From a virus: DNA of 29,914 bases. Position numbers and translations under genes: made by a program. Of this stretch, positions 1 through 25,258 are shown in pieces (the stretch's first letter is position 1; every line of letters begins with the position of its first letter). The notes below the pieces were generated by a model. It made no database searches. It was not told where the DNA came from and was given only the letters and a program-made list of their open reading frames with translations. The DNA lies in IMG/VR virus record IMGVR_UViG_3300030451_000879, positions 1 through 29,914 of that record; one strand, given 5' to 3'.

Positions 1-107
1 TGGTCAAGACTTACTTGCGTACCATCTTCTTTAAATGCACCTGTAGCGTCATTTACAATACCTACTTCTGGATAAGCTCTTAATATTGCTTCGTGATCTA
101 AACTCAT
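1..107 (-). CDS. Partial small phage accessory protein (N-terminus only)
   Basis: An ATG at 105-107 opens a frame that stays open to the left edge of the window. It gives about 35 residues beginning MSLDHEAILRAYPEVGIVND, so the C-terminus is missing. The start overlaps the stop of the preceding gene as ATGA, and a clean GGAGG lies 7 bases upstream. Short proteins with an 'HEAILRAYP...D..G.F...G..V.LDQ' N-terminus recur near the fibre genes of marine phages, but their function is unknown to me. Position suggests a virion-associated or fibre-accessory protein. Reality of the gene is likely; function is not assigned. Confidence 0.75.
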   Translation of the reverse strand, partial: MSLDHEAILRAYPEVGIVNDATGAFKEDGTQVSLD

Positions 108-622
108 GCTGAAACCTCCATTAAGTAAATAAAGGATTTAGCATTATATGGAGTGGAACCATTTTGACAATTTGTAGAATCACTATTCCCTGTTGCATAC
201 AAAGAAAATTGTGTTTTATAAGTAGTTGCACTTGTGGTATTAGGAGAATCTAAAAAATGTATAACTTTTGTATAGTGATGATTTATACTGCTTATATTTC
301 CACCACTTATAAATTGGTCATAAGAACCACTACTGTTTCTTGCACCATGATGAATTGTTGTTGATCCTCTAAGCAAATTAAGCCCAGCACCAGTACCACT
401 AGCAGCATTAGCAAAAAACATTTGTTGTTGAACAACAATCCAAATTTTGCTGCTTGTACTTGTTGGCGTGATAGTTCCACTTAAGTTTGTATCAACCATA
501 GTTGTGGTTGTATTTGTAACACTTGTAGTAGTTGAATCTTCTACTACTTGAACTATTCCACCACCACCACCTGTTGGTACACCTGCTACTGGTATTATGC
601 TGTTAACTTTAAGTTGACTCAT
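104..622 (-). CDS. Putative virion/tail-fibre accessory protein, 172 aa
   Basis: The protein starts MSQLKVNSIIPVAGVP followed by a GGGGG run. This N-terminus is characteristic of a family of marine phage fibre-associated proteins: a short anchor, a flexible glycine hinge, then a beta-rich domain rich in Ser, Thr, Gly and Asn. Residues from about 30 to the end look like one beta-sandwich head ('GTITPTSTSSKIWIVVQQQ' to 'FIYLMEVSA'). There is no signal peptide or membrane helix. Its ATG overlaps the stop of the upstream 82-residue gene as TAATG, and its own stop overlaps the next ATG, so it is translated as part of the fibre operon. A role in host contact is inferred from context. Exact function unknown. 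Confidence 0.7.
   Translation of the reverse strand: MSQLKVNSIIPVAGVPTGGGGGIVQVVEDSTTTSVTNTTTTMVDTNLSGTITPTSTSSKIWIVVQQQMFFANAASGTGAGLNLLRGSTTIHHGARNSSGSYDQFISGGNISSINHHYTKVIHFLDSPNTTSATTYKTQFSLYATGNSDSTNCQNGSTPYNAKSFIYLMEVSA
115..119 (-). promoter_or_regulatory. Strong Shine-Dalgarno for the left-edge gene
   Basis: Minus-strand GGAGG sits 7 bases before the ATG at 107, inside the end of the upstream gene. It decides the start of the partial left-edge gene and is one of the stronger ribosome sites in this AT-rich window. Confidence 0.7.
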
Positions 623-870
623 TAATACTTAGTTTTTCCTAATGTAACGGCAGCGTCTTGAGCAGTAAAATCTTCTGAAGTCCAGATTGATGTAGTTTCA
701 TCTTCTTTTTTATAAGCCTTAATAATCTCAAGATGCTCTACATTTCTTTTAATTGTATCTTTCTGCTCATCTGTAAGAGATGACAATGCTGCAAGTTCGT
801 TTATAAGAGTGACGCTATCTCCAGCAGCAGAAAAGATTTGTGCAATTTCGTCAGCAGTACGTTCAGACAT
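622..870 (-). CDS. Small conserved phage protein in fibre cluster, 82 aa
   Basis: This is a helical, acidic protein. The N-terminal half (MSERTADEIAQIFSAAGDSV) and the middle (TIKRNVEHLEIIKAY) look like two helices. The C-terminus 'WTSEDFTAQDAAVTLGKTKY' resembles a short conserved tail seen in small proteins beside marine phage fibre genes. It starts two bases after the giant-fibre stop and overlaps the next ATG by one base (TAATG), so translational coupling is likely. A fibre chaperone or small virion component is possible, but nothing in the sequence proves it. Confidence 0.65.
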   Translation of the reverse strand: MSERTADEIAQIFSAAGDSVTLINELAALSSLTDEQKDTIKRNVEHLEIIKAYKKEDETTSIWTSEDFTAQDAAVTLGKTKY

Positions 871-872
871 AA

Positions 873-3800
873 TTAAACAATAGTAAGATTTGAATTAGCG
901 GATACAACAACAGTAACACCACTGCTTATGGTTATGTCACCAGCAGCCATAGCGTTGTTACCACTAGTAATAGTATAGTCGCTAGAAACTGTTTGAGCAT
1001 TCTCATAAAAAACACCGCCATTAACAACAGCATGGGTAGATATTGAAAAACCAACACCCGGTATTCTAAATTTGGTAATGTTACTATCACCAATTGTTGC
1101 TTCGTTACTTACAGTTGCAGCACTGGCAGTAGCATCATGTCCAATAACTATATTGTTGTCACCAGTTGTAAGATTATTTCCAGAATTATGACCGATTGCA
1201 GTGTTTGTTGATCCTGTTGTGTTTTCTGTTAATGAATGTCTACCAACAGCAATATTTTCTGAACCTGTAGTATTTGCATCTAATGATAAATTACCAATAG
1301 CAGTGTTATTAGATCCTGTAGTATTGACACCTAAAGCTGACACACCCATACCAGTATTATTAAATCCTGTTGTATTAGCATCTAAAGCATGAGCACCAAC
1401 AGCAGTATGACCACCTCCAGTTGTTGTTTCTTCTAAAGCGTGGTGACCAACAGCAACATTATTACTAGAAACAGTACATTTTTCTAAAGCCTCTGCACCA
1501 ACCGCAGTATTTTTTTCGCCAGTGGTATTTTGATTTAAAGCCAAATTACCAACAGCAACCATGTTACTGGATGTAGTGTTATTACCTAAAGCTGATGTTC
1601 CTACTGCCACATTGTCGGTTCCTGTAGTATTTGCGTCTAAAGAATATGCACCTACGGCTACATTGTCGGCTCCTGTACAAAGACCTAAAGCAGATTGACC
1701 AATCGCAGTATTGTTATCAGCAGTGGTATTTGCATCTAGGGCAAAAGCACCTAAAGCAGTGTTATAAGATCCTGTCGTTATATTTTCACCAGTTTTGTAA
1801 CCGATTGCTACGTTTTGATCTGCTGTGGTTAGATCAGTTCCAGCGTTAAATCCAAATAAAGTATTTCTTATACCTTGACCAGAAGTAATAGTATCTCCAG
1901 CATTAGAACCACCTAAAGTATTTCCATCTGAATCTGAACTTACTCCACTAGAAGCAGCTTCAAAACCTGCTTCTCCATTTGCGTCTACGGTTAAAACGTG
2001 ACCTTGCGTGGCAGTGCTACTTTTTAGTACAAAATTTAAATTAGGTATTCTAAACTTAGTAAGTTCGTCACCTCCAATAGTACATTCGTTGCTTACGCTT
2101 GCAGAACTAGCTTGAGTTCTATAACCTATCAAAATATTATTACTTCCAGTTAAAGTTTGTACAAATCCAGATCTATATCCAATAAGTACATTATTACTTC
2201 CAGTACTGGCAAACTTTCCAGAATCATAACCTATAAAGACATTGTCTACTCCAGTAGATAAATTTTGTCCAGCATTACATCCTAATGCTGTGTTTCCATT
2301 AGCAGTAGTAACGCCTCCTAATGCGTTGCTTCCAACAGCAGTTTGATCTTTACCTGTTGTGCTTGCGTCTAAAGCCCCCCAACCAACTGCCGTATTATTA
2401 GAACCATAAAAATCATATTCCTCACTGCCTTGATCTATATTCTGTAATGCTTTATATCCAACACCTGTGTTTTTATAAGAAGTTATAGTGTTTTTTCCAG
2501 CGTCAGTACCTATATATGTATGTTGATAACCTACAGTTAGGTTAGCTCCAGCAGAATGACCAATAGCTACGTTTTCGTCTGACGTAGTTAAATCAGTACC
2601 AGCATCAAATCCAAATAAAGTATTTTTTAAACCTTGACCAGAAGTTATAGCATCACCAGCATTTGTACCACCAATAGTATTACCATCAGAATCAGAACTT
2701 ACTCCACTTGAAGCTGCTTCAAAACTAGCCTCTCCGCTTCCGTCAACGGTTAATACATGACCTTGTGTTGGTGTGCCACCGTTGTCTTTTAAAACAACAT
2801 CAATACCCGGAATTCTAAATTTAGTAACAGAGCTATTTCCTAATGTGATTTCATTAGATACGGTTGCTGCACTTGGTGTAGCGTTATTTCCTAAACAAGT
2901 ATTATTTGAGCCAGTAGTTAATGTATCTCCAGCATATTGTCCTACACAGGTATTTGAACTTCCAGAAGTTATATTATCTGCTGCCTGATAACCTATACCA
3001 ATATTAAATTGACCTGATGACAGTTGTTCAAAAGCTTGCCTACCAATACCTACGTTATAACTTGCAGTTGTTGCAGAAAATGCAATTTGATAACCTAAGA
3101 AACTATTACTTTGACCAGTAGTTAATCCAGAACCAGCAGAACCACCGACAATGGAATTAAAATTAGCAGTAGTTATTGCATCTCCAGTATTTCTACCAAT
3201 TAGTACATTGTTTTGACCTGTTGTTATGCTTTCTCCAGCACTATGTCCGATTCCAATATTATTTGAGCCAGTAGTGCAATCTTTTAATGCCGAATGACCA
3301 AACGCTTGGTTTGAATGTCCACCAGTAATGCTCTCCCCTGCTTGTGCCCCAAAACATCCATTTGACTCGCCTGTAGTGATTTTTTCTCCAGCATAATAAC
3401 CTAGAAGAGTATTGCGATCCCCTGTGCTTATAAGTCGACCAGCACTGTCACCAATCGCAGTGTTAAATAAACCCCCAGATTGAATGGAAGCACCTGCATT
3501 GTTACCAGCAAAAGTATTACCACTTCCAGTTGTTATTTCGTTAGATATAGTTATTGTTTTCGTAGCTCCTGTGCCAGAAGCAGTTACCTTAGATCCTACA
3601 AAATTTAATGTTGTGCCAGCAGTAGACAATGCTGAACCCTCGTCTTGTACTGTGATACCACCAGAAGAAGCAGCCTCAAAACTAGCCTCCCCATTACTGT
3701 CTACTGTTAATACATGACCTTGTGTTGGTGTTCCGCCATTATCTTTAAGAATAAAGTCTATTCCGGGGATTCTAAACTTGGTAATAGATGTATTACCTAG

Positions 3801-6800
3801 AGTTATTTCGTTATCTGTGCCAACGGCTGAAGCGTTAGTATTATAACCTATAATTATATTGTTACTTCCAGTTGTTAAATTTTCTCCAGCAGGTGCACCG
3901 ATAGCAATATTTTGAGTACCAGTAGTAAGGCTGACAAGTGCATTATCACCTACACCTACGTTAAAACCTCCACTTGTACAAACTTTTAAAGCTTTACGGC
4001 CTATAGCAGTATTAGCGTTTCCTGTAGCTGCTCTTAAAGTTTCCCAACCTAAAGAAGTATTTTCACTACCAGTTGCGTTTGTTTGTGATTCCCAACCTAC
4101 AGCAGTATTTTTATTACCTGTTGTGTTTGTTGATAACGAGCTATAACCTACTGCTGTATTGTTATTTGCAGTAGTATTAGCATCTAAGGCATAAGAACCT
4201 ACAGCTACATTACCTGCTCCAGTTGTGTTTTGATCTAATGCTCTAAAACCTATGGCAACACTGTTACTTGCTGTTGTGTTTCGATATAAAGCTTGTACTC
4301 CAACCGCTGTGTTATTACCTCCACTTGTATTATCTGATAAAGCATTTACACCAACTGCTGTTGAATAATTACCATTATGTGAATCAAGAGCATTTACACC
4401 AATAGCAGTATTTTGTGTACCTGTTGTATTAGCTCCTAAAGCATTATTACCAATAGCAGTATTAAAATCAGCAGTTGTATTAGCGTCTAAAGCTTGATAA
4501 CCTAATGCGGTGTTTTTATCACCTGTTGTGTTTGCTCCTAATGCTTTATAACCAACACCTGTATTATTTGATGCCGTAGTATTAGCACCTAAAGCATCCA
4601 CACCTAAACCAGTATTGTTTGATCCAGTTGTATTACTAGCAAGCGAATCATAACCTAATGCTGTATTAAAATTTGCAGTTGTATTTGCTGTTAAAGAGTA
4701 AGCACCAACTGAGGTATTAAACATACCAGTTGTATTGTTCAGTAACGCAACATAACCTAATCCTGTATTGTGTCCAGCCGTTGTATTTGCAGTTAATGAA
4801 TTATGTCCAAGAGCAGTATTGTATTCTCCAGTAGTATTAGCGTCTAAGGCATTACTACCTACAGCTACGTTCTGAGTTCCAGTTGTGTTTGCTAATAAAG
4901 CATTTACTCCTATAGCGGTGTTGTTATCAGCAGTTGTATTAGCTTCTAAAGCCTTAAACCCTAAACTTACATTACCCGTTCCAGATGTGTTGTCTGCTAA
5001 TGCATTATAACCAACACCAGTATTATTAGATGCTAAATTTGCAGTTAAACTGTTATGACCAACTGCTACGTTAAAAGATCCATTGCCACCATCTAAAGCA
5101 TGACTACCAATCGCTACGTTTCTTTGTCCTGTAGTGTTAGATTCCATTGCTGTATGACCAATGGAAACATTGTTAGCACCAGTTGTATTTGAATCTAACG
5201 AGGTTGATCCTATAGCTACGTTCTGCGTTCCAGTTGTGTTTTCTTCTAAAGCCTTGTAACCAACAGCAGTGTTATTTGATGCAGTTGTGTTCATTTGTAG
5301 AGCTTCTCTACCAATTCCAGTGTTGTAATCGCCAGTTGTGTTATTTGCTAAAGCACCATAACCCATAGCCGTATTTTCACTTCCAGTAGTATTTGCATAT
5401 AAAGCTTCTCTTCCAACCGCTACATGACCACTTCCAGTAGTGTTATTTTTTAATGCTTCTGAACCAACAGCTACGTTATTAGAACCATGATTATTAGCAA
5501 ATAATGCAATCTTTCCAACTGCTGTATTCTCACTCCCTTGAGTATTATAATATAAAGCGTTCTTACCAACAGCAGTATGACCACTTGAAGTTGAACTTGT
5601 ATATAAAGCATTACCACCAATAGCAGTTATATTGGATCCAGTAGTGTTACTTCGAGCAGCATCATTACCAACAGCAACATTTACCGCCCCATTGTTTGAT
5701 AATAAAGCCCTTCTACCGACAGCAGTGTTGCCATATCCACTGTTATTTGCTGATAAAGAGCTATAACCTATTGCTGTATTACCACTGTTGGTAATATTAG
5801 CATCTAAAGCAAGAGCCCCAATCGCTACATTTTGACTTCCAGTTGTATTAACTTTTAAAGCTTCAAAACCACTTGCGGTGTTATCGGCTCCTGTAGTATT
5901 GCTCATTAAAGCATTTTTACCAAATCCAGAGTTATTACTTGCTGTTGTATTTGCAGATAGAGAACCATAGCCACAACCTGTATTACTTCCACCGCTAGTG
6001 TTTGCGTCTAGAACGAATCCTCCAATTGCTACGTTTGCAACTCCTGTAGTACCGCTGACTAATGCAGATGCACCAAAAGCAGTGTTTGTAGCAACATTAC
6101 CACCACCTTTACCAACAGTAAGTCCATTTATGGTTGCGTCTGTCGTTCCAGTGATAGCTCCTGTTACGCTTAATCCACCACTTGAAATTGTTAAATTTCC
6201 AGTTAACGTACCACCAGCTAAAGGTAATTTGGTTGCTATTGAATTGGTTACAGTTGTTGAAAAGTTCGCATCGTCACCCAAAGCTGCTGCGAGTTCATTG
6301 AGTGTATTTAATGTGCTAGGACTAGAGTCAACTAGGTTTGATATTGCTGTATCTGTGTAAGCTGTTGTCGCAACTTTAGTAGAATTATCCCCTGCCGATT
6401 GGGTCGTTGCTGTTACTCCGTTTGTCAATACACCAGAGCTAGAGGTCAAGCCACCGAATAATGTGTCTCTAGCTGCAATATCAACCCCATCTACGGTTCC
6501 ATTAAGAGTAATATTTTTTATACCAGATATATTTGTATTACTATCTCCAATTATATTTCCATTTGCATAAATGCTTCCACTTGAATTAATTATACCTGTT
6601 ACAGTCAGACCTGCTAAAGCTTTAAAACTGTTGTGGATTCTTGTATCAGCAGCCCTTACTGACATTCTTACAACATTATTATCATCTGGCGATTGTATTT
6701 CTAACCTTCCACTATTACATATTATTTTAAAATCAGGATTTTCGTCATTATCAGTAAGAGTAATACTTGGACTTGCGTTTGATATTGTTAAATCTCCAGA

Positions 6801-7583
6801 CATAGTAGTGTCACCAGCTACTTCAAGTCCTGTTCCGTTTATTAGTTTTAAATCTGTACTTGTAAGTCTTGCTCCAATATTATTAGAACCAGCTTTTCTT
6901 AATGCAAATTCAATTAATCCATCTTCTGTTCCAGAACTGGCATCATCAATCTTTCCAGTAAGTTTTGCATAAACTTCTTTACTACCATCATCACTTTCGC
7001 CAGTAAATTTAAGCTGTCCTAAATAATCTGCATCTGCTGGTGATGCACTATTTCTATAAAGCTCAATTATTGGAGAAGCAGAACTTCCAGCATCAGTTGA
7101 TGTAAGTGTTAAATCGCCTGTTCCTGTTATATCTGATGTAAAAACTGGAGAAATTTTTGACCCTGCTATCGCTGCATTTGGATTAATTTCAGCGTTATAA
7201 ATAGTTTCATTAATAATATGAGAATTGCCTACAGAATTATTAGCTAACTCATTAGCTGTTATAGAATCATTAGCTATTTGAGTCGCTGTTATGGAATCAT
7301 TAGCTATTTTACTTCCAGCTATCGCTGCGTTTGAAGCTATATTTGCATTGTCAATTACTCCACTATCGATAGTAAAAGTTCCACCGCTATTGCTGACAGT
7401 TATATCGCCCTTATCTCCATCAGATATACCAGCCCCCCCACCAGATATTTCTGCTACCGTTCCATCGTCTTTTTTTGTAAATAATTTACCAGTATCGGTT
7501 CTTACCGCTACTTCTCCTACAACTAAATCACTAGCACTAGGATCGCTACCGCTTCCTCTCTTAAGTTTAATTGTGTTAGACAT
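873..7583 (-). CDS. Giant repeat-built tail fibre, 2236 aa
   Basis: By far the largest gene here. Residues 1-50 (MSNTIKLKRGSGSDPSASDL, VVGEVAVRTDTGKLF) are a phage fibre anchor of the type shared by many marine phages. Residues 60-150 hold short 'NAAIAGSKIANDSITATQIA' repeats. Residues 150-495 form beta-rich stalk segments, including 'LPLAGGTLTGNLTI'. From about residue 499 the protein is a tandem array of 17-residue units, consensus NTAVGxxALxxNTTGxx, about 85 copies in four cassettes (about 45, 13, 11 and 16). Each cassette closes with a cap containing 'NEITLGN...TKFRIPGI'. The last 55 residues are a different tip ending 'ITISSGVTVVVSANSNLTIV'. The units resemble the beta-roll head repeats of YadA-like trimeric adhesins. 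A long trimeric receptor-binding fibre is inferred. A ribosome site AAGGAG lies 9 bases before the ATG. Confidence 0.85.
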   Translation of the reverse strand: MSNTIKLKRGSGSDPSASDLVVGEVAVRTDTGKLFTKKDDGTVAEISGGGAGISDGDKGDITVSNSGGTFTIDSGVIDNANIASNAAIAGSKIANDSITATQIANDSITANELANNSVGNSHIINETIYNAEINPNAAIAGSKISPVFTSDITGTGDLTLTSTDAGSSASPIIELYRNSASPADADYLGQLKFTGESDDGSKEVYAKLTGKIDDASSGTEDGLIEFALRKAGSNNIGARLTSTDLKLINGTGLEVAGDTTMSGDLTISNASPSITLTDNDENPDFKIICNSGRLEIQSPDDNNVVRMSVRAADTRIHNSFKALAGLTVTGIINSSGSIYANGNIIGDSNTNISGIKNITLNGTVDGVDIAARDTLFGGLTSSSGVLTNGVTATTQSAGDNSTKVATTAYTDTAISNLVDSSPSTLNTLNELAAALGDDANFSTTVTNSIATKLPLAGGTLTGNLTISSGGLSVTGAITGTTDATINGLTVGKGGGNVATNTAFGASALVSGTTGVANVAIGGFVLDANTSGGSNTGCGYGSLSANTTASNNSGFGKNALMSNTTGADNTASGFEALKVNTTGSQNVAIGALALDANITNSGNTAIGYSSLSANNSGYGNTAVGRRALLSNNGAVNVAVGNDAARSNTTGSNITAIGGNALYTSSTSSGHTAVGKNALYYNTQGSENTAVGKIALFANNHGSNNVAVGSEALKNNTTGSGHVAVGREALYANTTGSENTAMGYGALANNTTGDYNTGIGREALQMNTTASNNTAVGYKALEENTTGTQNVAIGSTSLDSNTTGANNVSIGHTAMESNTTGQRNVAIGSHALDGGNGSFNVAVGHNSLTANLASNNTGVGYNALADNTSGTGNVSLGFKALEANTTADNNTAIGVNALLANTTGTQNVAVGSNALDANTTGEYNTALGHNSLTANTTAGHNTGLGYVALLNNTTGMFNTSVGAYSLTANTTANFNTALGYDSLASNTTGSNNTGLGVDALGANTTASNNTGVGYKALGANTTGDKNTALGYQALDANTTADFNTAIGNNALGANTTGTQNTAIGVNALDSHNGNYSTAVGVNALSDNTSGGNNTAVGVQALYRNTTASNSVAIGFRALDQNTTGAGNVAVGSYALDANTTANNNTAVGYSSLSTNTTGNKNTAVGWESQTNATGSENTSLGWETLRAATGNANTAIGRKALKVCTSGGFNVGVGDNALVSLTTGTQNIAIGAPAGENLTTGSNNIIIGYNTNASAVGTDNEITLGNTSITKFRIPGIDFILKDNGGTPTQGHVLTVDSNGEASFEAASSGGITVQDEGSALSTAGTTLNFVGSKVTASGTGATKTITISNEITTGSGNTFAGNNAGASIQSGGLFNTAIGDSAGRLISTGDRNTLLGYYAGEKITTGESNGCFGAQAGESITGGHSNQAFGHSALKDCTTGSNNIGIGHSAGESITTGQNNVLIGRNTGDAITTANFNSIVGGSAGSGLTTGQSNSFLGYQIAFSATTASYNVGIGRQAFEQLSSGQFNIGIGYQAADNITSGSSNTCVGQYAGDTLTTGSNNTCLGNNATPSAATVSNEITLGNSSVTKFRIPGIDVVLKDNGGTPTQGHVLTVDGSGEASFEAASSGVSSDSDGNTIGGTNAGDAITSGQGLKNTLFGFDAGTDLTTSDENVAIGHSAGANLTVGYQHTYIGTDAGKNTITSYKNTGVGYKALQNIDQGSEEYDFYGSNNTAVGWGALDASTTGKDQTAVGSNALGGVTTANGNTALGCNAGQNLSTGVDNVFIGYDSGKFASTGSNNVLIGYRSGFVQTLTGSNNILIGYRTQASSASVSNECTIGGDELTKFRIPNLNFVLKSSTATQGHVLTVDANGEAGFEAASSGVSSDSDGNTLGGSNAGDTITSGQGIRNTLFGFNAGTDLTTADQNVAIGYKTGENITTGSYNTALGAFALDANTTADNNTAIGQSALGLCTGADNVAVGAYSLDANTTGTDNVAVGTSALGNNTTSSNMVAVGNLALNQNTTGEKNTAVGAEALEKCTVSSNNVAVGHHALEETTTGGGHTAVGAHALDANTTGFNNTGMGVSALGVNTTGSNNTAIGNLSLDANTTGSENIAVGRHSLTENTTGSTNTAIGHNSGNNLTTGDNNIVIGHDATASAATVSNEATIGDSNITKFRIPGVGFSISTHAVVNGGVFYENAQTVSSDYTITSGNNAMAAGDITISSGVTVVVSANSNLTIV
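1041..1922 (-). repeat. Fibre repeat cassette 4 plus cap (residues 1888-2181)
   Basis: About 16 tandem 17-residue (51 bp) units. The first three are of the 'NAG..ITSGQ' type and nearly copy the start of cassette 3; the rest are mostly of the NTTG type. The cap near 1041-1109 keeps 'TKFRIPG' but then diverges into the C-terminal tip instead of the linker that ends the other three cassettes. Confidence 0.8.
1944..2681 (-). repeat. Fibre repeat cassette 3 plus cap (residues 1635-1880)
   Basis: About 11 units, mostly of the 'AG..LTTG' type. One unit is expanded by about eight residues ('QNIDQGSEEYDFYGSN', near 2400-2450), which breaks the period. It closes with the cap and linker 'TQGHVLTVDANGEAGFEAAS'. 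Confidence 0.8.
2703..3530 (-). repeat. Fibre repeat cassette 2 plus cap (residues 1352-1627)
   Basis: About 13 units, nearly all of the 'AGE.ITTGxxN' type. They are distinct from the 'AL..NTTG' units of cassette 1. The cap at about 2703-2855 ends with the 'QGHVLTVDGSGEASFEAASS' linker. A short non-repeat beta segment (residues 1309-1351) separates it from cassette 1. Confidence 0.8.
3660..6086 (-). repeat. Fibre repeat cassette 1 plus cap (residues 500-1308)
   Basis: The longest array, with about 45 units of 51 bp and a few 48 bp units that lose one residue. Most units are of the NTAVGxxALxxNTTGxx type, and the last two move toward the 'AG..LTTG' type. Neighbouring units differ at many codon third positions, so the protein period is much cleaner than the DNA period. 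The cap lies at about 3660-3815. Confidence 0.85.
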
Positions 7584-7592
7584 TGTTTAAAA

Positions 7593-7598
7593 CTCCTT
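7593..7598 (-). promoter_or_regulatory. Shine-Dalgarno AAGGAG of the giant fibre gene
   Basis: Minus-strand AAGGAG lies 9 bases upstream of the ATG at 7583 in a 32-base gap after the 362-residue fibre gene. It fixes the start and suggests independent, efficient initiation rather than coupling. Confidence 0.7.
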
Positions 7599-7615
7599 AG
7601 TAATTTAGCTTTAAC

Positions 7616-8704
7616 TCAATATGTGCCTCCATCCAGGTCGAACCCACTAACTGATCCGTTTTCTAAAAATGTCACCAAATCAGAAAAGGCAACTTGTACC
7701 ATTGTTCCGTTATCATTAACAACCATACGATCTGCTAAAGCAAGTGTTGTTGATGTAGCAGATGTTGACCCATCAGTACAGGTATTTAATTCTGTAGTGG
7801 TGGCGAGTAATCCATCAAGTTTGTTTATTTCAGCAGTAGTTACTGTCGCACCGTCTAATTTATTTAACTCTGCGGTTGTAACTGTCGCACCGTCTAGAAC
7901 TTGAACTTCTGCTTGCGTTAAATCTGCTAAAGCGGTTGCTGTGCCAGCAGCCATTGTTGCAAGTTCGTCTAGCTGTGGGTCATAACTTTGAACGTCTGAA
8001 CCGATGGCAACTCCAAGATTTGTTCTAGCATCACTTGCATTTGACGCTCCTGTACCCCCATGTGCCACTCCTATATCTGTACCACTCCAAACACCTGATG
8101 TGATAGTGCCGACTGAAGTTAAGCTAGATGCTAAAACTGTTGAACCAAGTCCTGTTTTCGATAAAACAACAGAACCATCAATACGGAAATTTTTAGATGC
8201 AACAAGCTCTAAATGCTCTGAAGATGTCCAAGAATCTGTTGCATTTAACCAGTTAAATGTATGATCCTGAGTTCCTTTTAAAGTAAGTCCACCACCGTTG
8301 GCTGTGGTATCAGTAGGTGAACTTACCTTACCTAATTCTATGTTTTTATCTGCAACATCAATTGTGCTACTAGAAATGGTAGTCGTAGTACCTTGAACTG
8401 TTAGATTTCCGACAACTGTTAAGTTTTGGTTTATTGAAAAAGATGGAATTGTAGCAGCACTTAAATCAATAGTTCCTGTAAAGGTTTTATTACCTGAGAC
8501 TGTTTGGTTACCAGTTTTATCAACAAAAGCACCCGATCCAGCTATAGCTTTTATTGACGTTGCTGAACCTCCAGCCCCACCTGACCCGATACCAAGATAT
8601 AAAGTATCATCAACTGCGTTATACGCTGGTTCTGTTTCCATCAAAGAAGATGGTGCTCCAGCAGCACCAGATGCTCTTCTTTTAAATCTTAAAGTGTTTG
8701 CCAT
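7616..8704 (-). CDS. Tail fibre protein, 362 aa
   Basis: The N-terminus MANTLRFKRRASGAAGAP is an anchor like that of the neighbouring giant fibre (MSNTIKLKRGSG), so both probably attach to the same virion site. The middle contains beta-helix-like segments 'NQTVSGNKTFTGTIDLSA' and 'NQNLTVVGNLTVQGTT'. Around residue 220 is 'VAHGGTGASNASDARTNLG', a common phage fibre linker. Residues 265-315 carry three or four diverged copies of 'LDGATVTTAELNK'. The C-terminus is a short 'SGFDLDGGTY' tail. The family is common in marine phage structural regions. A trimeric fibre or fibre-adaptor role is inferred. The gene follows a 39-base gap with no strong ribosome site. Confidence 0.8.
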   Translation of the reverse strand: MANTLRFKRRASGAAGAPSSLMETEPAYNAVDDTLYLGIGSGGAGGSATSIKAIAGSGAFVDKTGNQTVSGNKTFTGTIDLSAATIPSFSINQNLTVVGNLTVQGTTTTISSSTIDVADKNIELGKVSSPTDTTANGGGLTLKGTQDHTFNWLNATDSWTSSEHLELVASKNFRIDGSVVLSKTGLGSTVLASSLTSVGTITSGVWSGTDIGVAHGGTGASNASDARTNLGVAIGSDVQSYDPQLDELATMAAGTATALADLTQAEVQVLDGATVTTAELNKLDGATVTTAEINKLDGLLATTTELNTCTDGSTSATSTTLALADRMVVNDNGTMVQVAFSDLVTFLENGSVSGFDLDGGTY

Positions 8705-8743
8705 GAGCTTAGTTTAGGTAAAGGCTAGTGGTAGCAATGGATT

Positions 8744-8971
8744 TCAAAAATTTCCTCCATCGGTCAATTCCAATGGAGTAACATCTGCGTCAGCCACATA
8801 GGAATCTACAGAAGCTTTATACCTAACTATACTCCCATCTACTCTATTTGTATCTATTAAATCTAAACCTTTTGCACCTTGAGCACCTGGAATGGCTACA
8901 GTAACTACTTTTGTTTTGGAATTAACCGTAATTTTTTTCTCAGGAGAATTAACTGTTATTTTTTTATTCAT
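8744..8971 (-). CDS. Small fibre-cluster protein, 75 aa, function unknown
   Basis: Starts with a short internal duplication, 'KKITVNSPEKKITVNSKTK', followed by 'VAIPGAQGAKG', a brief collagen-like stretch often found at phage fibre hinges. The C-terminal half (VDGSIVRYKASVDSYVADAD) is beta-like and ends 'LELTDGGNF'. Its ATG overlaps the stop of the upstream beta-domain gene as ATGA, so the two are translationally coupled. It may be a short fibre, an adaptor for the 362-residue fibre, or a virion protein of another kind. I recognise no enzyme motif. Confidence 0.65.
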   Translation of the reverse strand: MNKKITVNSPEKKITVNSKTKVVTVAIPGAQGAKGLDLIDTNRVDGSIVRYKASVDSYVADADVTPLELTDGGNF

Positions 8972-9318
8972 CTAGTGTACCCCTGTAATACCTTTATTTT
9001 ACCTTTAACATAAGTTTCTTTTTCCCCTGTTCCGTTTGTTACAACAATGTCATAATACAATTCGTCTGGAAAGTTTACAGTTTGATCATCAGTTAAAGAC
9101 AATTTGAATTTGCCATTGGCTCTATCTACAAACGCAACGACAAAATCAGCAAATTTATAATCCCTCTCCTCGTCCCAAGCTTGAGATGCAATAGAAAAAC
9201 CAGATAAATCCATTGCAGTATAGCTTCCGTCAGATTGTTCATTTTCAAGATGATATTCTTGAACCCAATCAGTAGCTCTATAAATTTCTAAATTTTGCAA
9301 AGCTGGAGGTGAGGACAT
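8968..9318 (-). CDS. BppU-like beta-domain baseplate/fibre protein, 116 aa
   Basis: One compact beta domain: 'NLEIYRATDWVQEYHLENEQ' at the start, a central 'MDLSGFSIASQAW', 'GKFKLSLTDDQTVNFPDELY' and 'YDIVVTNGTGEKETYVKGKI'. This pattern (an early hydrophobic strand, a polarisation strand, then 'Y.Y.I....G....+.G.I.V..') matches the Ig-like N-terminal domain of phage baseplate upper proteins and related small marine phage proteins. It sits between a coiled-coil protein and a fibre-hinge protein, which suggests a structural adaptor that docks fibres to the tail tip. Assignment is by fold-like pattern only. Confidence 0.65.
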   Translation of the reverse strand: MSSPPALQNLEIYRATDWVQEYHLENEQSDGSYTAMDLSGFSIASQAWDEERDYKFADFVVAFVDRANGKFKLSLTDDQTVNFPDELYYDIVVTNGTGEKETYVKGKIKVLQGYTR

Positions 9319-9322
9319 TTTG

Positions 9323-9514
9323 TTATGTTACAGGTGCTTCATTAGGAGCATCTTCTGTAGGAGGTTCAATTTTATTGTAAGCTAAAATTTCTCCATTTAA
9401 CCCATCAAGTTGTTTTTCAATTGATCGACACTCAGCTTGCAACTGATTCCACTTTTCTACAAGTTCTTTGCCTTTTGATTGGGCTTCTGTTCTTAGTTCT
9501 GCAATAGATGACAT
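9323..9514 (-). CDS. Small coiled-coil protein, 63 aa
   Basis: Residues 1-48 form a single amphipathic helix with heptad-like spacing (AELRTEAQSKGKELVEKWNQ, then ECRSIEKQLDGLNGEILA). A short acidic, Pro-rich tail follows. This could be a coiled-coil trimerisation module or a fibre-assembly chaperone. It is the first gene after a 61-base AT-rich gap that holds a candidate promoter. No named family is assigned. Confidence 0.65.
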   Translation of the reverse strand: MSSIAELRTEAQSKGKELVEKWNQLQAECRSIEKQLDGLNGEILAYNKIEPPTEDAPNEAPVT

Positions 9515-9540
9515 GAATAAAAATAAATATATTTAAGCTT

Positions 9541-9568
9541 ATTATATACCTAATTATTTAGATTTCCA
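9541..9568 (-). promoter_or_regulatory. Candidate sigma70-type promoter for the left fibre genes
   Basis: On the minus strand, TGGAAA (4 of 6 matches to TTGACA) at 9563-9568 is followed by 16 bases and a perfect TATAAT at 9541-9546. It lies in the 61-base gap between the collar fibre and the coiled-coil gene. AT-rich DNA yields such matches by chance, so confidence is limited. Confidence 0.35.
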
Positions 9569-9575
9569 TTCTTTT

Positions 9576-10745
9576 TTACGTTTTAATTATATAAATCATT
9601 GCTACGTTATGTGGTCTTGATTCGTTATGACCATTGCTGTTTAAACTTAGTGACAAAGTTGAAGTAATTAAATGTCCAATGTTTCCAGAATTTTTTACCG
9701 CATTATTAGCAGCGACCAAACCACTATCATTATTTGCATAACCTACGTTGTAACTTTGACCAGAACCCAAAGTAATATTAACAGCACCATTATGCTGGTT
9801 TAAACGTATAGGTCTTATATTATGAGCATGATTTCCACCACTATTAGAAATGCTTGAACTTGCGACTGTATGAGTATGAGATAAATTAGCAGTATCTTGT
9901 GTAGAACCTCTTACCCGATTGGTGTCTTTATTTCTACCATGATCCCAACCTCGTATAAACTCACCTCTTAAATCAGGCAAGAAAAACTCCCCAGATGGGG
10001 GTGTTTGACCTTTGTTATATGTATTACCACATACAGCAGCTAAATCAGAATAGGTTGAACTAGAAACATGATCTCCATCGCACTCTAAATAACCACCAGG
10101 TATATCTGTCTCAGCACCAGCAAAAGGAAAAATTGTACCTGTTGGCACACCTTGTACTGCTTGAAACGATAAAACTCCATTTCCATTTGTAGTAAGCACC
10201 TCGTCAGCATTTCCATCATCTGAAGGGAGAGTTAAAGTAACATCAGAAGTTAAAGCTGGAGCCTGTAAACTTACGACATTAGAATTACCGCTATCTCTAA
10301 ATTCTAATTTTTTGCCATCTTTTATTTCAATACCTGTTGTTTCTACATAAGCAATATCCTCTCCACCACAAGACAAACCTATTGTGTCTGAGGCTGGTTT
10401 ATATAAACCTGTATTAGCATCATTTACTTGTATAGAGGGAGATGCTTTTGTACCAGCAGATGATTGCACATTACCTGTAAAAGTACCACCTGTTTTAGGT
10501 ATCATACCTAAATTTGTTTCAAGATTTCCTAGAGTAATAAATGCTGCATTATCAGTATCACCTTTAATTTTTAAAACATCTACAGTACCAGAAGTGTCAA
10601 TCCAAGTTTGATGTGCTTTTGCTACTGAAGGTGCAGAATCTCCAGAATTATTAGATTGCAAAGCTAATATGTTTTCATTCATATCAGCTAAAACATTAGC
10701 TCCTGTATCATTAGGTATTGGTAAATTTCCTGATGAAACTTGCAT
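9576..10745 (-). CDS. Tail fibre with collar domain, 389 aa
   Basis: The N-terminal 100 residues contain 'HQTWIDTSGTVDVLKIK' and 'MIPKTGGTFTGNV', fibre elements frequent in marine phages. A beta stalk follows ('TLTLPSDDGNADEVLTT'). From about residue 200, 'GTIFPFAG....PGGYLECDG', 'YNKGQTPPSGEFFLPDLRGE' and 'FIRGWDHG' define a phage tail collar domain as in T4 gp12 and many fibres. The last 100 residues carry HxH pairs (SHTHT, GNHAHN) and end 'RPHNVAMIYIIK', matching metal-binding fibre tips where His pairs coordinate iron along the trimer axis. Its ATG overlaps the gpJ stop by one base. The Asn/Gly-rich insert between the HxH motifs is the likely variable receptor-binding part. Confidence 0.85.
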   Translation of the reverse strand: MQVSSGNLPIPNDTGANVLADMNENILALQSNNSGDSAPSVAKAHQTWIDTSGTVDVLKIKGDTDNAAFITLGNLETNLGMIPKTGGTFTGNVQSSAGTKASPSIQVNDANTGLYKPASDTIGLSCGGEDIAYVETTGIEIKDGKKLEFRDSGNSNVVSLQAPALTSDVTLTLPSDDGNADEVLTTNGNGVLSFQAVQGVPTGTIFPFAGAETDIPGGYLECDGDHVSSSTYSDLAAVCGNTYNKGQTPPSGEFFLPDLRGEFIRGWDHGRNKDTNRVRGSTQDTANLSHTHTVASSSISNSGGNHAHNIRPIRLNQHNGAVNITLGSGQSYNVGYANNDSGLVAANNAVKNSGNIGHLITSTLSLSLNSNGHNESRPHNVAMIYIIKT

Positions 10746-13700
10746 TAAACTGATTTCCCGAATCCTATTGCCGTAAAAGTAAAAGCTTTTGCTATACGAC
10801 TGTTATTACCATCATATATCGAAATGCTAAAACTGGAAGAGGAACTTGAAGTTATTTTATAATACTCACCAGTGCTTGCAGCACTAAAGGTTACTCCAAT
10901 AATAGGAGTACTTACAAAATTATTTGCAAAATTTACTGTTAAATCTGCATTAGCTAAAGTTGTACCACTTCCATTAATAGTTCTTCTTGTCATTTGAGAT
11001 ATAATTTTTAGGCCATAAACTGCTAATTGTGCAGTATTATCATTAGTTTCTAATTCTGCTTTAAATTCATATGCCCTTGCTTTAAATTCTGCGTTATTAA
11101 ATGGCCTCCATGTTGAATAACTACAAGAAGGACTATTCTCATCAGAGACAAAGCTTGGATCATTAGGATTTTGCTGTGTTGTTCTTACATATAATTGAAC
11201 ATTATTATTTTCTGGAGTGTCACCAACAAAAGATGGTAAAGCAGCAATACCTGTAGTATTTAAAGGTGCTAATGGGTCAAAATCTAATCCAAGCGTATTC
11301 ATTGTTGGAGCAGTTGGGAAAAAAGATCTTGATTTAATTTCTGACTTTAGTTTTACACTAAATACGGCTGTCAAATCTATAGGATTATTTGCAAAATAAT
11401 AAGTACCACTTGTATGTAAAACACTTCCATTTGATTTCAAGACAAGCTCACCATTAACAACTTCAAGGTTTGAAGTATTAGGATTAGGTAAACCAGCAAA
11501 CGTATTGTTTTCCGTCTGCGTATTTATATCAATAAGATCTTCTAAATCAGGTTCATCAAACTCTACTAATGCTGCATTAACACTCTGCCTACCACCAGAG
11601 TCAATAAACTTAGCAGAATATGTACCTTCTTTTAAATCAACATAAGCTTCTTTTGCAGTACCAGTAACATCCTCATGTATTGAGTTACTATTCGCCCAAG
11701 TCACACCTGATAGCAAAGGAGAATGCCTTAACCTAACTAGCCCCCCTACGACCACATCAAGTTCTGTACTTTGCGTCCATTGCAATCTTGCAAGTCCATT
11801 AGTAGGAATCATTGTAAGATTTTGTACTTGACCTGGAGCAGCAGTCTTTCCAGCTAAATTTACTTCGTGTAATGCAATACCACTTGATTTACCTAGATAG
11901 TTAACTGCTTGTACTTGTACTTGTAATCGCCCTGCTCTTAACGCTCCAAAGTTACCACCTTGACGTAAAGTCACTGAAGTTGCAGCGGTTGATATTGTAG
12001 CCCAGTTATCATTGTCAACTCTATATGTAACTAAAAACTCAGTTACTCTACGTTTGTTATGTTGCCATGAAATATCACATCCAACAAAAACACCTTGACC
12101 ATCAGAATACAAAAATTCATTATCTGAAAAGTTAGTTGGTTTATCAGGTATTGTGGTTAAATCAGTTACTGGACGTACTGTTATAGGCTCTCCTAAATCA
12201 ACAGCGTTATATAAACTATTGTTGTATTTTAAAGCTACAACCTTGAAAGTAACTCCATCGTCTTTTACATCTATTACTCTATATTGTTGTGCTGGAACTC
12301 CACTATTTTCTAGTAAGTAAACAGTTTGTGCTGCTGGTGCTTCACTAAAACTTTGTCCAGCAGCTAAATTAATAGTTCTATTTGAATAATCAATAGTACT
12401 AACTGTTTTTTTCTCTAAAAGACCAGTAGATAAAATTACTGATATTGTAAAATTACTTCCAGATTGATTAATATCACTACTATTATCAATTTTTATTGCT
12501 GTAGTTGTACTTCCACTTGATACAAAACCTGTGTGTCTATAACCTGTTTTATGTTTATCTGCTATATCAATAACCATACCAGGCATTAGAATCATGCCGC
12601 TATTTATAGGCACGGAAAATGATACTGTTTCCGTGGCAAATTGTTCTGTTTTTAAAGTCCATAACCCTAACCTATGAGCTTGACCTTGTGAATATGTACC
12701 TATACTTTTTATTTGCTTATTAATAATTCCATATTTACTAACAGAATCTACATCTTCAATATATTCAAAATCTACTTCTCCAAGTTTTTGATAATCTTGG
12801 TAAGCAACAGTTACTGTTGTATGTCTTGATTGTTGTGAAGTACCAGTATATTCAAAAAAACCTTCTACAACCGTTGCATTTCCAATTAAATATCTACTTG
12901 TTTCTGGTTTGTCTTGAAATAAGCTAAATATTCCAGCACCGTAAAAACTTTGACCCCTAAAAATACTAGTAAAATCTTTTATTGCATCATGTATTTGTTT
13001 TCTAGTATTAATCAGTATATTCACTAACATTCTTGGTTCTTGTCCAGTTCCACCTTTTTGGTCAGGGACTAATTCATTGCAATATTGTGATATGGCAAAA
13101 AATTCAAATTTTTGTAAAGTGTTTGGATTTACAGAACATCCGTACCTAGTGTTTGTTAATAAGTTGTAAAAACACCAGGCTGGATCTGCACACCATGTTG
13201 CAGTACCAAACGTACCATCCCAAACACCTGTATATGTAACTCTGCCTATATAACCAATACCATCCGTTATAGTTTCTGTTGCTCCTGTAGCTACTACATA
13301 TCTCTGAGTTTCTGAAATGTCTACTTTTGCATTATTTGGCAATTGTACTTTTATACCTCTAATTAAATATTTTCTTCTTGGAATACTAGAAAACTGTCTT
13401 GAATCAAAACGTAAAAATGCTAATGCACTATTTGGATAACGTAATTTAGAATCTATTATTTCAGTTGCACCACCTACAAATGTTTTACTAAAAAACTTTT
13501 CAGTACCTCCTGTAGGGTCATCACGGCTAATTCTTACGACTCTTATCTGGGCTTGATTACTAAAACTAGAAAGGCTAAACACATAATCTTTTTTATATTG
13601 AGTAGAAGTCTTACCTTTTATTTCTGTCCAATATCCATTGTTTTCATCATGATTTGCATTTCTTGAAAATACAGAATTGTTATAACCAGCACCATCATAA

Positions 13701-14206
13701 TTAACTTGTATATTGAATTTTACTGCGTAACCAACAATGTCTCCATCATCTTCAACCCTACGCAAATTAGGAATCATCATTGTTACCCTAACCCTATTTA
13801 CATTGGTATTAGTAACTGTGAAAACAAATGCATTATTCTCATTAGAAGTATACGGATTATTCCCTGCTGTAATTTCTACATTATTAATATCAGTTCTTTC
13901 AGTACCTAATTCGCTTGTAGGTATGTAGTTTTGTGTTTGAGTACCTTTTCTAAATGCACTTGTAAAACCATTAAAATTATTAGTTCCATCTGGATTTTGT
14001 ATTCGAGTTCCGTTAAGAAAAATAGATTGTAAACCCCCACTGTTTATATCACCTGTATCTAATCCTTCTATCTCTCCCTCGGAAAGCAAATCAATTACTT
14101 GACCAAATTGAATACTAGATAAAGAATCATCAGCTTCAACAGGAGTATGTTGATTGCCACCTTTACCACTACCACTACCTCTTAAATACTGTTTATATTC
14201 TTTCAT
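10745..14206 (-). CDS. J: Central tail fibre/host specificity protein, gpJ-like, 1153 aa
   Basis: Length (1153) is close to lambda gpJ (1132), and the gene directly follows gpK and gpI homologues as in lambda. The N-terminus 'GSGSGKGGNQHTPVEADDSL' then 'LLSEGEIEGL' is the classic gpJ start: a Gly/Lys-rich lead, then the 'SEGEIEGL' motif. The middle contains tail-hub segments (SQGQAHRLGLWTLKTEQFAT, SFSVPINSGMILMPGMVIDI). Roughly residues 680-890 are fibronectin-III-like domains (AAPGQVQNLTMIPTNGLARL). The C-terminal 250 residues are unlike lambda and include 'ANADLTVNFANNFVSTPIIG', as expected for a receptor-binding end. It forms the tail tip that contacts the host surface. Confidence 0.92.
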   Translation of the reverse strand: MKEYKQYLRGSGSGKGGNQHTPVEADDSLSSIQFGQVIDLLSEGEIEGLDTGDINSGGLQSIFLNGTRIQNPDGTNNFNGFTSAFRKGTQTQNYIPTSELGTERTDINNVEITAGNNPYTSNENNAFVFTVTNTNVNRVRVTMMIPNLRRVEDDGDIVGYAVKFNIQVNYDGAGYNNSVFSRNANHDENNGYWTEIKGKTSTQYKKDYVFSLSSFSNQAQIRVVRISRDDPTGGTEKFFSKTFVGGATEIIDSKLRYPNSALAFLRFDSRQFSSIPRRKYLIRGIKVQLPNNAKVDISETQRYVVATGATETITDGIGYIGRVTYTGVWDGTFGTATWCADPAWCFYNLLTNTRYGCSVNPNTLQKFEFFAISQYCNELVPDQKGGTGQEPRMLVNILINTRKQIHDAIKDFTSIFRGQSFYGAGIFSLFQDKPETSRYLIGNATVVEGFFEYTGTSQQSRHTTVTVAYQDYQKLGEVDFEYIEDVDSVSKYGIINKQIKSIGTYSQGQAHRLGLWTLKTEQFATETVSFSVPINSGMILMPGMVIDIADKHKTGYRHTGFVSSGSTTTAIKIDNSSDINQSGSNFTISVILSTGLLEKKTVSTIDYSNRTINLAAGQSFSEAPAAQTVYLLENSGVPAQQYRVIDVKDDGVTFKVVALKYNNSLYNAVDLGEPITVRPVTDLTTIPDKPTNFSDNEFLYSDGQGVFVGCDISWQHNKRRVTEFLVTYRVDNDNWATISTAATSVTLRQGGNFGALRAGRLQVQVQAVNYLGKSSGIALHEVNLAGKTAAPGQVQNLTMIPTNGLARLQWTQSTELDVVVGGLVRLRHSPLLSGVTWANSNSIHEDVTGTAKEAYVDLKEGTYSAKFIDSGGRQSVNAALVEFDEPDLEDLIDINTQTENNTFAGLPNPNTSNLEVVNGELVLKSNGSVLHTSGTYYFANNPIDLTAVFSVKLKSEIKSRSFFPTAPTMNTLGLDFDPLAPLNTTGIAALPSFVGDTPENNNVQLYVRTTQQNPNDPSFVSDENSPSCSYSTWRPFNNAEFKARAYEFKAELETNDNTAQLAVYGLKIISQMTRRTINGSGTTLANADLTVNFANNFVSTPIIGVTFSAASTGEYYKITSSSSSSFSISIYDGNNSRIAKAFTFTAIGFGKSV

Positions 14207-22762: not shown

Positions 22763-25258
22763 TTAAGTTGCGAAACAGAATGCCCCAGCTTGACGAATAG
22801 CGTAATCGATATCCTGTAAAGCGATGATTCTTACTGTTCCAGCAGTTGCACCAGCATATGGATCAACTGTTAGATCTAAACCAGACCACATACCAACGAT
22901 AAACTGACTAAAGTCTCCGAAGATTGCGTCATTGTTAACTAACTGGTTAGAAACAATAGCGTCATAACCATTAATTTGGTTATTGTCGAATACAAACATA
23001 CCTGTGTTTGAAGCTTTCTCTGTTGACTTCAAAGCACCTCTTGCAGAAGCATTAATGAGATACTTCATAGAACCGCCTTCAGCATTAGCAACAGCTACAT
23101 CTGTTTCCATTCCGATGTACTCAGCAAAAGTACCGAAGGATGTTAAGGACTGAGAACCAATACCACTTGTATCTTTTAGACCTAATGGCTGGTTAGAAGA
23201 ACCTGTTCCATAGATAGCTGTACGATCTAGCTCAAGAGCGATCTTCTTAGCAATATCATCTCTAACAAATGCTTCAATATCAATTGAAGATTGTAGAAGA
23301 GTTCTTCTAGTAAAGTCAGTAAATGCACCGATTGTCTTTGGTGTCATTGAAATTTGCGTAAAGCTTTGCTGACCCTCTGTAGGAGCTCCGCCTTCTCCAA
23401 CCCAGTACGCACTTGTTGTCCCATCTTGCTTGGGGATACTGATGTTTCCTTCTAGCCCAGTAAGCATAGTTACCCCAGCTTCCATGATAGCCATCTTATT
23501 TCTTAAGATTTCTATGAAAGAACCACTGAGAAGCTCTGTACTAACTAGATTTCCACCGTCAGCAGCAGTACCAACATTTAAATCCCTCTTTAGAACTTCG
23601 TTAGGAACAATAATTCCTTTTGCTGGTCTACCATAACGCTTTGCAGCTTCATCAGAAACTTCTCTTTCAAATGCAGCAGCTTCTTGAGCTTGCTTGTCTG
23701 CTGGTGATGCTAATGCGTTGATAGCTCTTAGGAAAGAGAATTGCTTAACTTCTTTTTTGTCAAGAAATTCACTTGACTGTTTTGTTTCAATCATGTCGGT
23801 AGAACGAATTGGAGTAGCCTTTTTATTTTTAACAAGATCCAAAATAGCTGATCTTGCTTCTGTAGCAGTTTTATTACCCTTTATAAGAGTTTCTGCTAAT
23901 TCTTCTGCTCCATATTCTGAGAACTCACGACAAGTTGAAGTGATCTCTGCAACACGAGCATTGTTTTCATCTAAAGCACGTTGTACTTCAGCTTGAACAT
24001 CAATTTCTACTGTCGGCTTCTGTTCCACCGCAGCTTCTTTAGTTGTTTCTTCCATAGATGGATTAGATTGTGCGGTGGGAACCGCTGAACGTTCCTCTTT
24101 TTGAGAGGAGTTAACATTAATGATAATGTCTTCTTCATCTAAAGTAACACTTTCTGATGAAATATTCTCTACTAAAGATCTTCCAAAGCCGACTGAATTG
24201 TCTGCTGGGATAGTTGCCAAGCTGACCTCATGCGGAGTCCAGCGGGTAGCTCTAAGCCCAGTGTCCGTTTCTTCCACTTCGTCCAAACTATAGCCAAACG
24301 AGATTCCACGGAAAATACCGTCTTTAACGTCTTCTAAGACTTCTGTAGCGAATTTAGAGCGAGAAAAGCGGATTTTAGCGTAACCACGTTTATCGGTGTC
24401 TGAAATATACGCAGATTCCACTACCCCTAGAACCCGATTCGGATCATGGTTGAAGAGAAACGGTGCTGCTCCATTTAATCTGGATAAGTCAGCACTTCCT
24501 CTTTCGTGGCTTAACACTTCGTCACCAAAAAACCTACGAACTGGTGCTTCCGATGAAAAAGGAAACTCAAAAGTTCTTGCTTTTTTCTGGTCGAAGTCAG
24601 TAACTTCTTTTCTTTGCAGCTTATCTTCTGATGAGATTACCCTGATCGGAGCAATCTTAGTCAAAGTAGAAAACTTGTGACCAACTTTGCGATCTGTTGC
24701 TTCACCATCTCTATATAAAGTGATTAAAGCAGCAGGGTCATCAGGTGTTCCTGTGATCGTAAAAGAAGAGTCTGGCACATCGATAGAACCATCTCTAACA
24801 ATACGAGTAATTTTTCCTCGTGCCGTACCTCCACTTGAAGACCAAGAAACAAAATCTCCTGTCTTCAAAGCGTCAGGTGCTGCACGTTCTTCAGTCTGTT
24901 CAGACATAGTACGCTCCCTAGCTTTTTTAATTTGGTTAGACTTGGTTCTAGACCAAGACTGCCCTGCGTCTCCGCCCCAAGCAGCCCAACTGACCCTCCC
25001 GTTGCTGGGATAGCCGTCTTCGCCCTTGCGGAAACCCTTGCCCGATTTGTCCGACTCGTGCCGGGCAAACCACGCATTCATAGTTATAACAGTATCTGGA
25101 CTTAGCTGGTTACCACTTAATATTTGTGTTGCTCTTGTTCTTGCATCATCTGTGCCTCCAGCTTCTCCGTCTTTCTTCCATTCTCTATATCTTCTAGCCT
25201 CTACTCTCATTCCTTCCGTGGGCATAAGGTTAATATCCACCCCATTAACATTTGCCAT
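22763..25258 (-). CDS. Fused prohead protease-major capsid polyprotein (HK97 type), 831 aa
   Basis: One uninterrupted frame with several domains. Residues 1-117 hold a phage-specific domain with 'NAWFARHESDKSGKGFRKGE' and 'GYPSNGRVSWAAWGGDAGQS', whose function I do not know. Residues 128-205 look like a small SH3/Tudor-like barrel (LKTGDFVSWSSSGGTARGKI). Residues 215-365 are an HK97-type prohead protease; likely catalytic residues are H271 (FLFNHDPNRVLGVV), S320 (FRGISFGYSL) and E344 (TPHEVSLATIP). Residues 370-490 are a charged helical linker, probably the scaffolding delta-domain. Residues 495-831 are the HK97-fold capsid protein (LVSTELLSGSFIEILRNKMA, 'ALELDRTAIYGTG', 'QPLGL'). Self-cleavage presumably releases the capsid subunit. 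A GGAG ribosome site lies about 10 bases before the ATG. Confidence 0.9.
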   Translation of the reverse strand: MANVNGVDINLMPTEGMRVEARRYREWKKDGEAGGTDDARTRATQILSGNQLSPDTVITMNAWFARHESDKSGKGFRKGEDGYPSNGRVSWAAWGGDAGQSWSRTKSNQIKKARERTMSEQTEERAAPDALKTGDFVSWSSSGGTARGKITRIVRDGSIDVPDSSFTITGTPDDPAALITLYRDGEATDRKVGHKFSTLTKIAPIRVISSEDKLQRKEVTDFDQKKARTFEFPFSSEAPVRRFFGDEVLSHERGSADLSRLNGAAPFLFNHDPNRVLGVVESAYISDTDKRGYAKIRFSRSKFATEVLEDVKDGIFRGISFGYSLDEVEETDTGLRATRWTPHEVSLATIPADNSVGFGRSLVENISSESVTLDEEDIIINVNSSQKEERSAVPTAQSNPSMEETTKEAAVEQKPTVEIDVQAEVQRALDENNARVAEITSTCREFSEYGAEELAETLIKGNKTATEARSAILDLVKNKKATPIRSTDMIETKQSSEFLDKKEVKQFSFLRAINALASPADKQAQEAAAFEREVSDEAAKRYGRPAKGIIVPNEVLKRDLNVGTAADGGNLVSTELLSGSFIEILRNKMAIMEAGVTMLTGLEGNISIPKQDGTTSAYWVGEGGAPTEGQQSFTQISMTPKTIGAFTDFTRRTLLQSSIDIEAFVRDDIAKKIALELDRTAIYGTGSSNQPLGLKDTSGIGSQSLTSFGTFAEYIGMETDVAVANAEGGSMKYLINASARGALKSTEKASNTGMFVFDNNQINGYDAIVSNQLVNNDAIFGDFSQFIVGMWSGLDLTVDPYAGATAGTVRIIALQDIDYAIRQAGAFCFAT
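24914..24918 (-). promoter_or_regulatory. Internal Shine-Dalgarno GGGAG before Met118 of the polyprotein
   Basis: Minus-strand GGGAG lies 6 bases upstream of an in-frame ATG at 24905-24907 (MSEQTEERAAPD). The spacing is good. It could start a 714-residue form lacking the first domain, which ends just before it. Confidence 0.45.
24940..25080 (-). other. GC-rich island inside the polyprotein gene (residues 60-107)
   Basis: In an AT-rich window this stretch stands out. Third codon positions are roughly three-quarters G or C by my count of 42 codons (examples: CGG, CAC, TCG, GGC, CCC, CGC), while adjoining genes mostly use A/T-ending codons. It coincides with the 'WFARHE...WAAWGGDAGQ' domain core. 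Foreign origin or strong codon conservation could explain it. Confidence 0.6.

Follow-up and report, generated by a model that had tools for sequence, protein, structure and literature searches.

The heads of the trimeric autotransporters YadA (PDB 1p9h), AtaA (3wp8) and BoaA (3s6l) are formed from a short repeated coil with a conserved Gly, which in YadA has 14 residues and the core NSVAIG. In characterised phage fibres and tailspikes, the S74 domain makes trimers. The YadA label has also been applied to genes of several marine phages. The YadA region of a pelagiphage fibre was under-recruited in viromes (PMC3909814), and YadA-labelled fibres were noted in S-SZBM1 (PMC9146016) and in pelagimyophages (PMC7029224). 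In S-TIM4, the YadA-labelled structural gene ORF108 was mutated in all evolved populations (PMC6224464). ORF108 has a label similar to that of the fibre described here and, by chance, the same length (2236 residues), but it was ruled out as an experimentally studied homologue as it contains none of the 17-residue repeat. Its experimental data are therefore not transferable to our fibre, and the YadA label is unreliable as evidence of homology.

The window analysed here (the whole stretch of 29,914 nucleotides of IMG/VR record IMGVR_UViG_3300030451_000879; G+C 36.5%) contained the structural half of a siphovirus, in the order TerS-TerL-portal-MCP-TMP-M-L-K-I-J-collar fibre-fibre. The module is a lambda-like siphovirus tail and the phage is marine. 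In gene order, the CRP-822-type roseophages are among the nearest cultured phages; they are siphoviruses whose tail fibres are visible (PMC12629253). The window TerL was 41% identical to that of CRP-831. The G+C of the window is close to that of the low-G+C subgroup V of this group, for which SAR86 was predicted as host by the authors (PMC12629253); membership of the window in the CRP-822-type group, and its host, are putative.

All the tail genes considered below lie on the minus strand, which the sequence-only reading had not given for the fibre gene. The J-like tail tip/host specificity protein (10745..14206; phrog_31, E 2e-188) is followed by a tail collar fibre protein (9576..10745; PF07484, E 2e-14), a small LtfC-like protein (8968..9318; phrog_3304, E 2e-5; PF23926, E 0.004, below cut-off), a 362-residue structural protein that is fibre- or adaptor-like (7616..8704; phrog_30158, E 1e-28; phrog_6002, E 3e-26; BppL_N match below cut-off) and the repeat fibre, the last fibre gene (P0001; 873..7583, open for 2236 codons). 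Judged by its profile match, the LtfC-like protein has a possible role in fibre assembly or attachment. A further protein of 172 residues with a tail-fibre-like C-terminal domain is encoded at 104..622 (phrog_6942, E 3e-10).

The 2236-residue product of the fibre gene could be divided into an anchor, a linker, four repeat cassettes and a tip. The N-terminal anchor (residues 1–47; 7443..7583) is conserved among fibres at this locus by alignment and is Mtd_N-like, with a match to PF18454 (E 0.021, 15.2 bits) below the 26.3-bit cut-off. The linker/collar region (residues 48–499; 6087..7442) was assigned by PDB sequence matches, and residues 389–453 of it resemble the tail collar fibre gp4/upper fibre gp68 (PDB 9d93, E 8e-7; 6v8i, E 0.003). 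Inspection and a 17-residue PSSM placed about 45 units in cassette 1 (residues 500–1257; 3813..6086), 13 in cassette 2 (residues 1356–1576; 2856..3518) and 11 in cassette 3 (residues 1635–1831; 2091..2681). Cassette 4, with about 16 units (residues 1888–2159; 1107..1922), was modelled by AlphaFold with a pLDDT mostly of 80–90 for most of its units. Comparison of the sequences between the cassettes showed that each is a cap and linker: cap 1 (NEITLGNTSITKFRIPG..TQGHVLTVDSNGEASFEAA; 3519..3812), cap 2 (2682..2855) and cap 3 (1923..2090). All four cassettes close with one shared cap, NEITLGNssITKFRIPG, and caps 1–3 are followed by TQGHVLTVDxxGEAxFEAASSG. Cap 4 and the C-terminal tip (NGGVFYENAQTVSSDYTITSGNNAMAAGDITI..; 876..1106) are common to a related fibre with 14 units. 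No fold was matched by the tip of about 60 residues, and a Pfam scan of the fibre found neither S74 (PF13884) nor any other known trimerisation domain. The KR-rich N-termini of the 362-residue protein (7616–8704) and of the fibre (7443–7583) are alike, which suggests an attachment module common to the two.

The repeat itself has the consensus NTAVGxxALxxNTTGxx. The sequence-only reading had given about 85 units; inspection agreed with this, and the PSSM scan found 84, mostly spaced by exactly 17 residues. The shuffled fibre protein gave 0–2 units at the same threshold, and the maximum in any of 200 shuffles with an earlier, smaller PSSM was three. The description of the protein as mostly one repeat was correct for about 65% of its length; residues 1–499, the four caps and linkers and the last ~60 residues differ and represent anchor, linker, caps and tip. 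In 70 aligned units, Gly was present at repeat position 5 in all 70, positions 1, 8, 9 and 13–15 were nearly fixed, and positions 6, 7, 10, 11, 16 and 17 varied freely, as in a solenoid where the core is fixed and the variable sites are exposed. Regular Thr/Asn ladders run along the units. Mean identity between units was 41% in protein and 52% in nucleotides and hardly fell with distance. The longest stretch of DNA repeated exactly in the gene was 26 nt. Together, these values indicated that the array is old: an assembly artefact is unlikely given the divergence of the units and the shortness of the exact repeats, and recent tandem duplication or slippage is unlikely given how little identity decays with distance.

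The identification of the gene as a phage fibre was upheld by its position after J and by matches to PHROG virion structural and tail spike families (phrog_23837, E 7e-203; phrog_6002, E 7e-191; phrog_4636, E 2e-170), the profiles of which themselves contain the 17-residue repeat. The Chlorovirus glycoprotein repeat (PF06598) had no match in the window, and the control genomes gave no match either. A literature text search for NTAVG found no relevant paper. The gene encodes a genuine fibre, large and well ordered, of an already known type, and the repeat itself is not new.

Using tblastn, the repeat protein was matched in 142 phage records, mainly of cyanophages and of Bacillus, Escherichia and roseobacter phages, and the best matches were marine phages. 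Repeat matches were also encoded by archaeal viruses (a Halorubrum tailed virus and a Methanosarcinales-associated virus). The 17-residue repeat occurs together with a related 82-residue partner protein, as in the window, in the Methylophilales phage Venkman (repeat fibre gp55), in Pelagibacter phages HTVC111P and HTVC112P and in Roseobacter phages CRP-831, CRP-7 and CRP-1. As in the window, the partner directly adjoins the fibre in Venkman, CRP-831 and CRP-7, and the fibre follows a J-like tail protein in HTVC112P and CRP-831. These cultured marine relatives have one array, often with an S74 C-terminus, whereas the window fibre has four capped cassettes and no S74; in the four that were counted (CRP-831, CRP-7, HTVC112P and Venkman) there were 10–33 units, compared to about 85. 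SPO1 gp2.52 and its Bacillus phage relatives have the same repeat type (10 units counted) and an S74 end. Their start is weakly End_N_terminal-like, and no partner was found with them by tblastn.

The large number of turns is not exceptional, and a record length for the array was ruled out by two viral contigs, L117 with 109 units and L152 with 97 units (1953 residues). The L117 fibre (189–9830) has 3212 residues and is larger than that of the window; it has the same repeat but a different N-terminus, longer interspersed units and an S74 end. The C-terminal S74 chaperone domain was present in many homologues (e.g., L117, L119, L140, L141 and L144). The L152 fibre has repeat, anchor, cap and tip type in common with the window and a partner that is 95% identical; its array is single and uninterrupted. 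The anchor and gene order were kept with 14 units (L024), at least 10 (L003, a cut contig) and 97 (L152), and the L024 fibre, of only 600 residues, has anchor, tip and neighbouring genes in common with the window. At the same locus, repeat number ranged from 0 to 97, or 5 to 97 when only repeat fibres are counted. These comparisons showed that one locus with one anchor carries fibres of very different length. In contigs with more distant relatives of J (57–61% identity), no array of the NTAVG type was present at this position within the length covered. One contig (L001) was an identical fragment of the window. Two other contigs had adjoining repeat-fibre genes: L102 (4481–7432 and 7734–11318, 45 and 54 units) and L110 (2700–5714 and 5704–8406, 42 units each, the second gene being truncated where the contig ends).

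Two single-chain AlphaFold models were produced, model 1 of cassette 4 and the tip from a 7-row alignment, and model 2 of 12 units of cassette 1 from a gap-free 37-row alignment. Their overall confidence was moderate (pLDDT 67–68). In model 1 the pLDDT was below 50 over the last ~70 residues, and in model 2 (pLDDT 67) it was mostly 70–83 in the second half. Both models were a regular beta-solenoid in which TAV forms a strand once per 17 residues, and the second strand was placed differently in each. Foldseek searches of the PDB with either model returned nothing at E<=0.001. Against the viral library BFVD, model 1 matched phage and giant-virus proteins with E down to 9e-14. Among giant viruses of eukaryotes, the same solenoid was predicted for Bodo saltans virus and marseillevirus LCMAC201 and, more weakly, for medusavirus and Tupanvirus.

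The sequence-only reading had likened the repeat to YadA heads, and a true head of that type, that is, a left-handed parallel beta-roll homotrimer homologous to those of trimeric autotransporters, is an explanation to which we would give slightly worse than even odds. NTAVG resembles the NSVAIG core, the coil is short with a conserved Gly as in YadA, AtaA and BoaA, and the model from the deeper alignment retrieved mostly left-handed solenoids, including weak matches to BoaA (probability 0.57), AtaA and YadA. However, the unit has 17 residues rather than 14, and model 1 retrieved LRR and right-handed helix proteins, with no YadA-like head in its top 50. Trimeric autotransporters have a membrane anchor and a secretion signal, and a Pfam scan found no C-terminal YadA anchor barrel in the window fibre. 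The YadA_head profile proposed as a check (PF05658, cut-off 25 bits) had no match in the window; elsewhere it was over cut-off only in L117, in a six-frame search and not in a direct hmmscan of that protein, and gave weak matches to three other records. No relative of the repeat emerged from searches of PDB sequences with the fibre or with two alignments. The YadA link was partly supported. Based on the models, we consider a left-handed roll favoured but not established for the array, and YadA-head identity and a trimer plausible but unproven.

The other left-handed proteins retrieved by model 2 (LpxA, GlmU, gamma-carbonic anhydrase and, with probability 0.38, the Lolium ice-binding protein 3ult), together with the regular Thr/Asn ladders, would suit a monomeric left-handed beta-helix or ice-binding-like solenoid, the whole side of which would bind a flat surface, in contrast to a trimeric rod that binds by its tip. 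None of these fold matches was significant, however, and homologues with the same repeat end in the trimer-making S74, and we regard such a monomer as very unlikely. It is also unlikely, if a little less so, that the long array is a selectively neutral expansion, with function confined to the anchor and tip and none in the length. The range of 5 to 97 units among repeat fibres at one locus is consistent with such expansion, but at ~52% nucleotide identity the core is still nearly invariant and most units remain in the 17-residue register, so that the fold, if not the exact length, is under constraint.

The partner gene (622..870) starts 2 nt after the fibre stop and encodes 82 residues, for which no Pfam or PHROG family was over cut-off and no PDB relative was found. 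In the best 80 contigs, partner homologues were 78–95% identical and mostly beside repeat fibres, and the J proteins of those contigs were mostly only 24–42% identical. The partner was directly 3' of the repeat fibre, within 60 nt, in 62 of the 92 loci with both. When 97 loci were fetched via J or the 362-residue gene, five had repeat and partner, four had the repeat only, none had the partner only and 88 had neither (Fisher p 2e-6, from loci that are non-independent and with many contigs cut). A repeat fibre was present in all seven phage records with a partner. The association is not universal, as tblastn did not find the partner in SPO1-type and P-SSM2-type repeat-protein phages. A search of genome contigs gave one match, to a phage contig from the single-cell genome of an uncultured alphaproteobacterium, which is too little to name a host. 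The probable role of the partner is that of an assembly factor or tip adaptor dedicated to this type of repeat fibre. A broader proposal, which we would sooner doubt than accept, is that fibre and partner form a two-gene adhesion cassette moving between marine phages as a unit, in which the partner would serve a distinct, non-YadA family of 17-residue beta-solenoids as its dedicated chaperone or cap, and the coil number would be a length ruler for reaching the host surface. The conserved, unannotated partner gene is the part of the locus most worth following.

Roseophages CRP-831, CRP-821 and CRP-823 are near-identical in TerL (99.7–100%) and portal (99.6%), and the N-terminus of the fibre after J is common to all three. 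In CRP-831 the fibre body consists of 10 repeats and the partner gene comes next, whereas CRP-821 and CRP-823 have an S74 fibre (a label from reading the sequence) with neither repeats nor partner. This difference between near-identical phages supports the exchange of fibre body and partner as a unit. The recorded host strains differ as well, being FZCC0197 for CRP-821 and CRP-823 and either FZCC0196 or FZCC0198 for CRP-831 (PMC12629253); on the latter, Table 1 (FZCC0196) and the text (section 18; FZCC0198) of that paper disagree. The comparison suggests a role of the fibre in host choice, as a correlation from a single comparison of phages that differ at other loci too. The pair is a practical way to ask what part the fibre has in the host choice of a family of ocean phages.

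The best reading of the gene is a modular, exchangeable host-adhesion fibre. We put at about 0.8 the probability that it serves a marine lambda-like siphovirus as its long distal tail fibre, with an anchor, linker, four solenoid cassettes and a tip, and with a role in host contact. The N-terminal 50 residues would attach the fibre to the tail tip complex beside J. The linker of about 450 residues would lead to four stacked beta-solenoid cassettes of 17-residue coils, each ended by its cap, to form a stiff rod, with a small C-terminal domain closing the tip. At ~0.48 nm per coil, a value from known solenoids, 85 coils would give a rod of ~40 nm plus the rest of the protein. Such a rod could reach the cell surface and make the first, reversible host contact via the tip, the side chains at the variable repeat positions (6, 7, 10, 11, 16 and 17) or both. 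Array length and fibre body can be exchanged behind a retained anchor. The fibre thereby probably helps the virus to grip its host. Among marine phage fibres, it is a large and cleanly modular representative of a type that is widespread but structurally unsolved.

Elsewhere in the window, residues 13–120 of the product of the 831-residue capsid gene (22763–25258, minus strand) match a separate family, phrog_2859, and the N-terminal part of this protein has 48% identity with the beginning of the capsid gene of CRP-831. Based on these two observations, the gene looks like one for a fused capsid protein.
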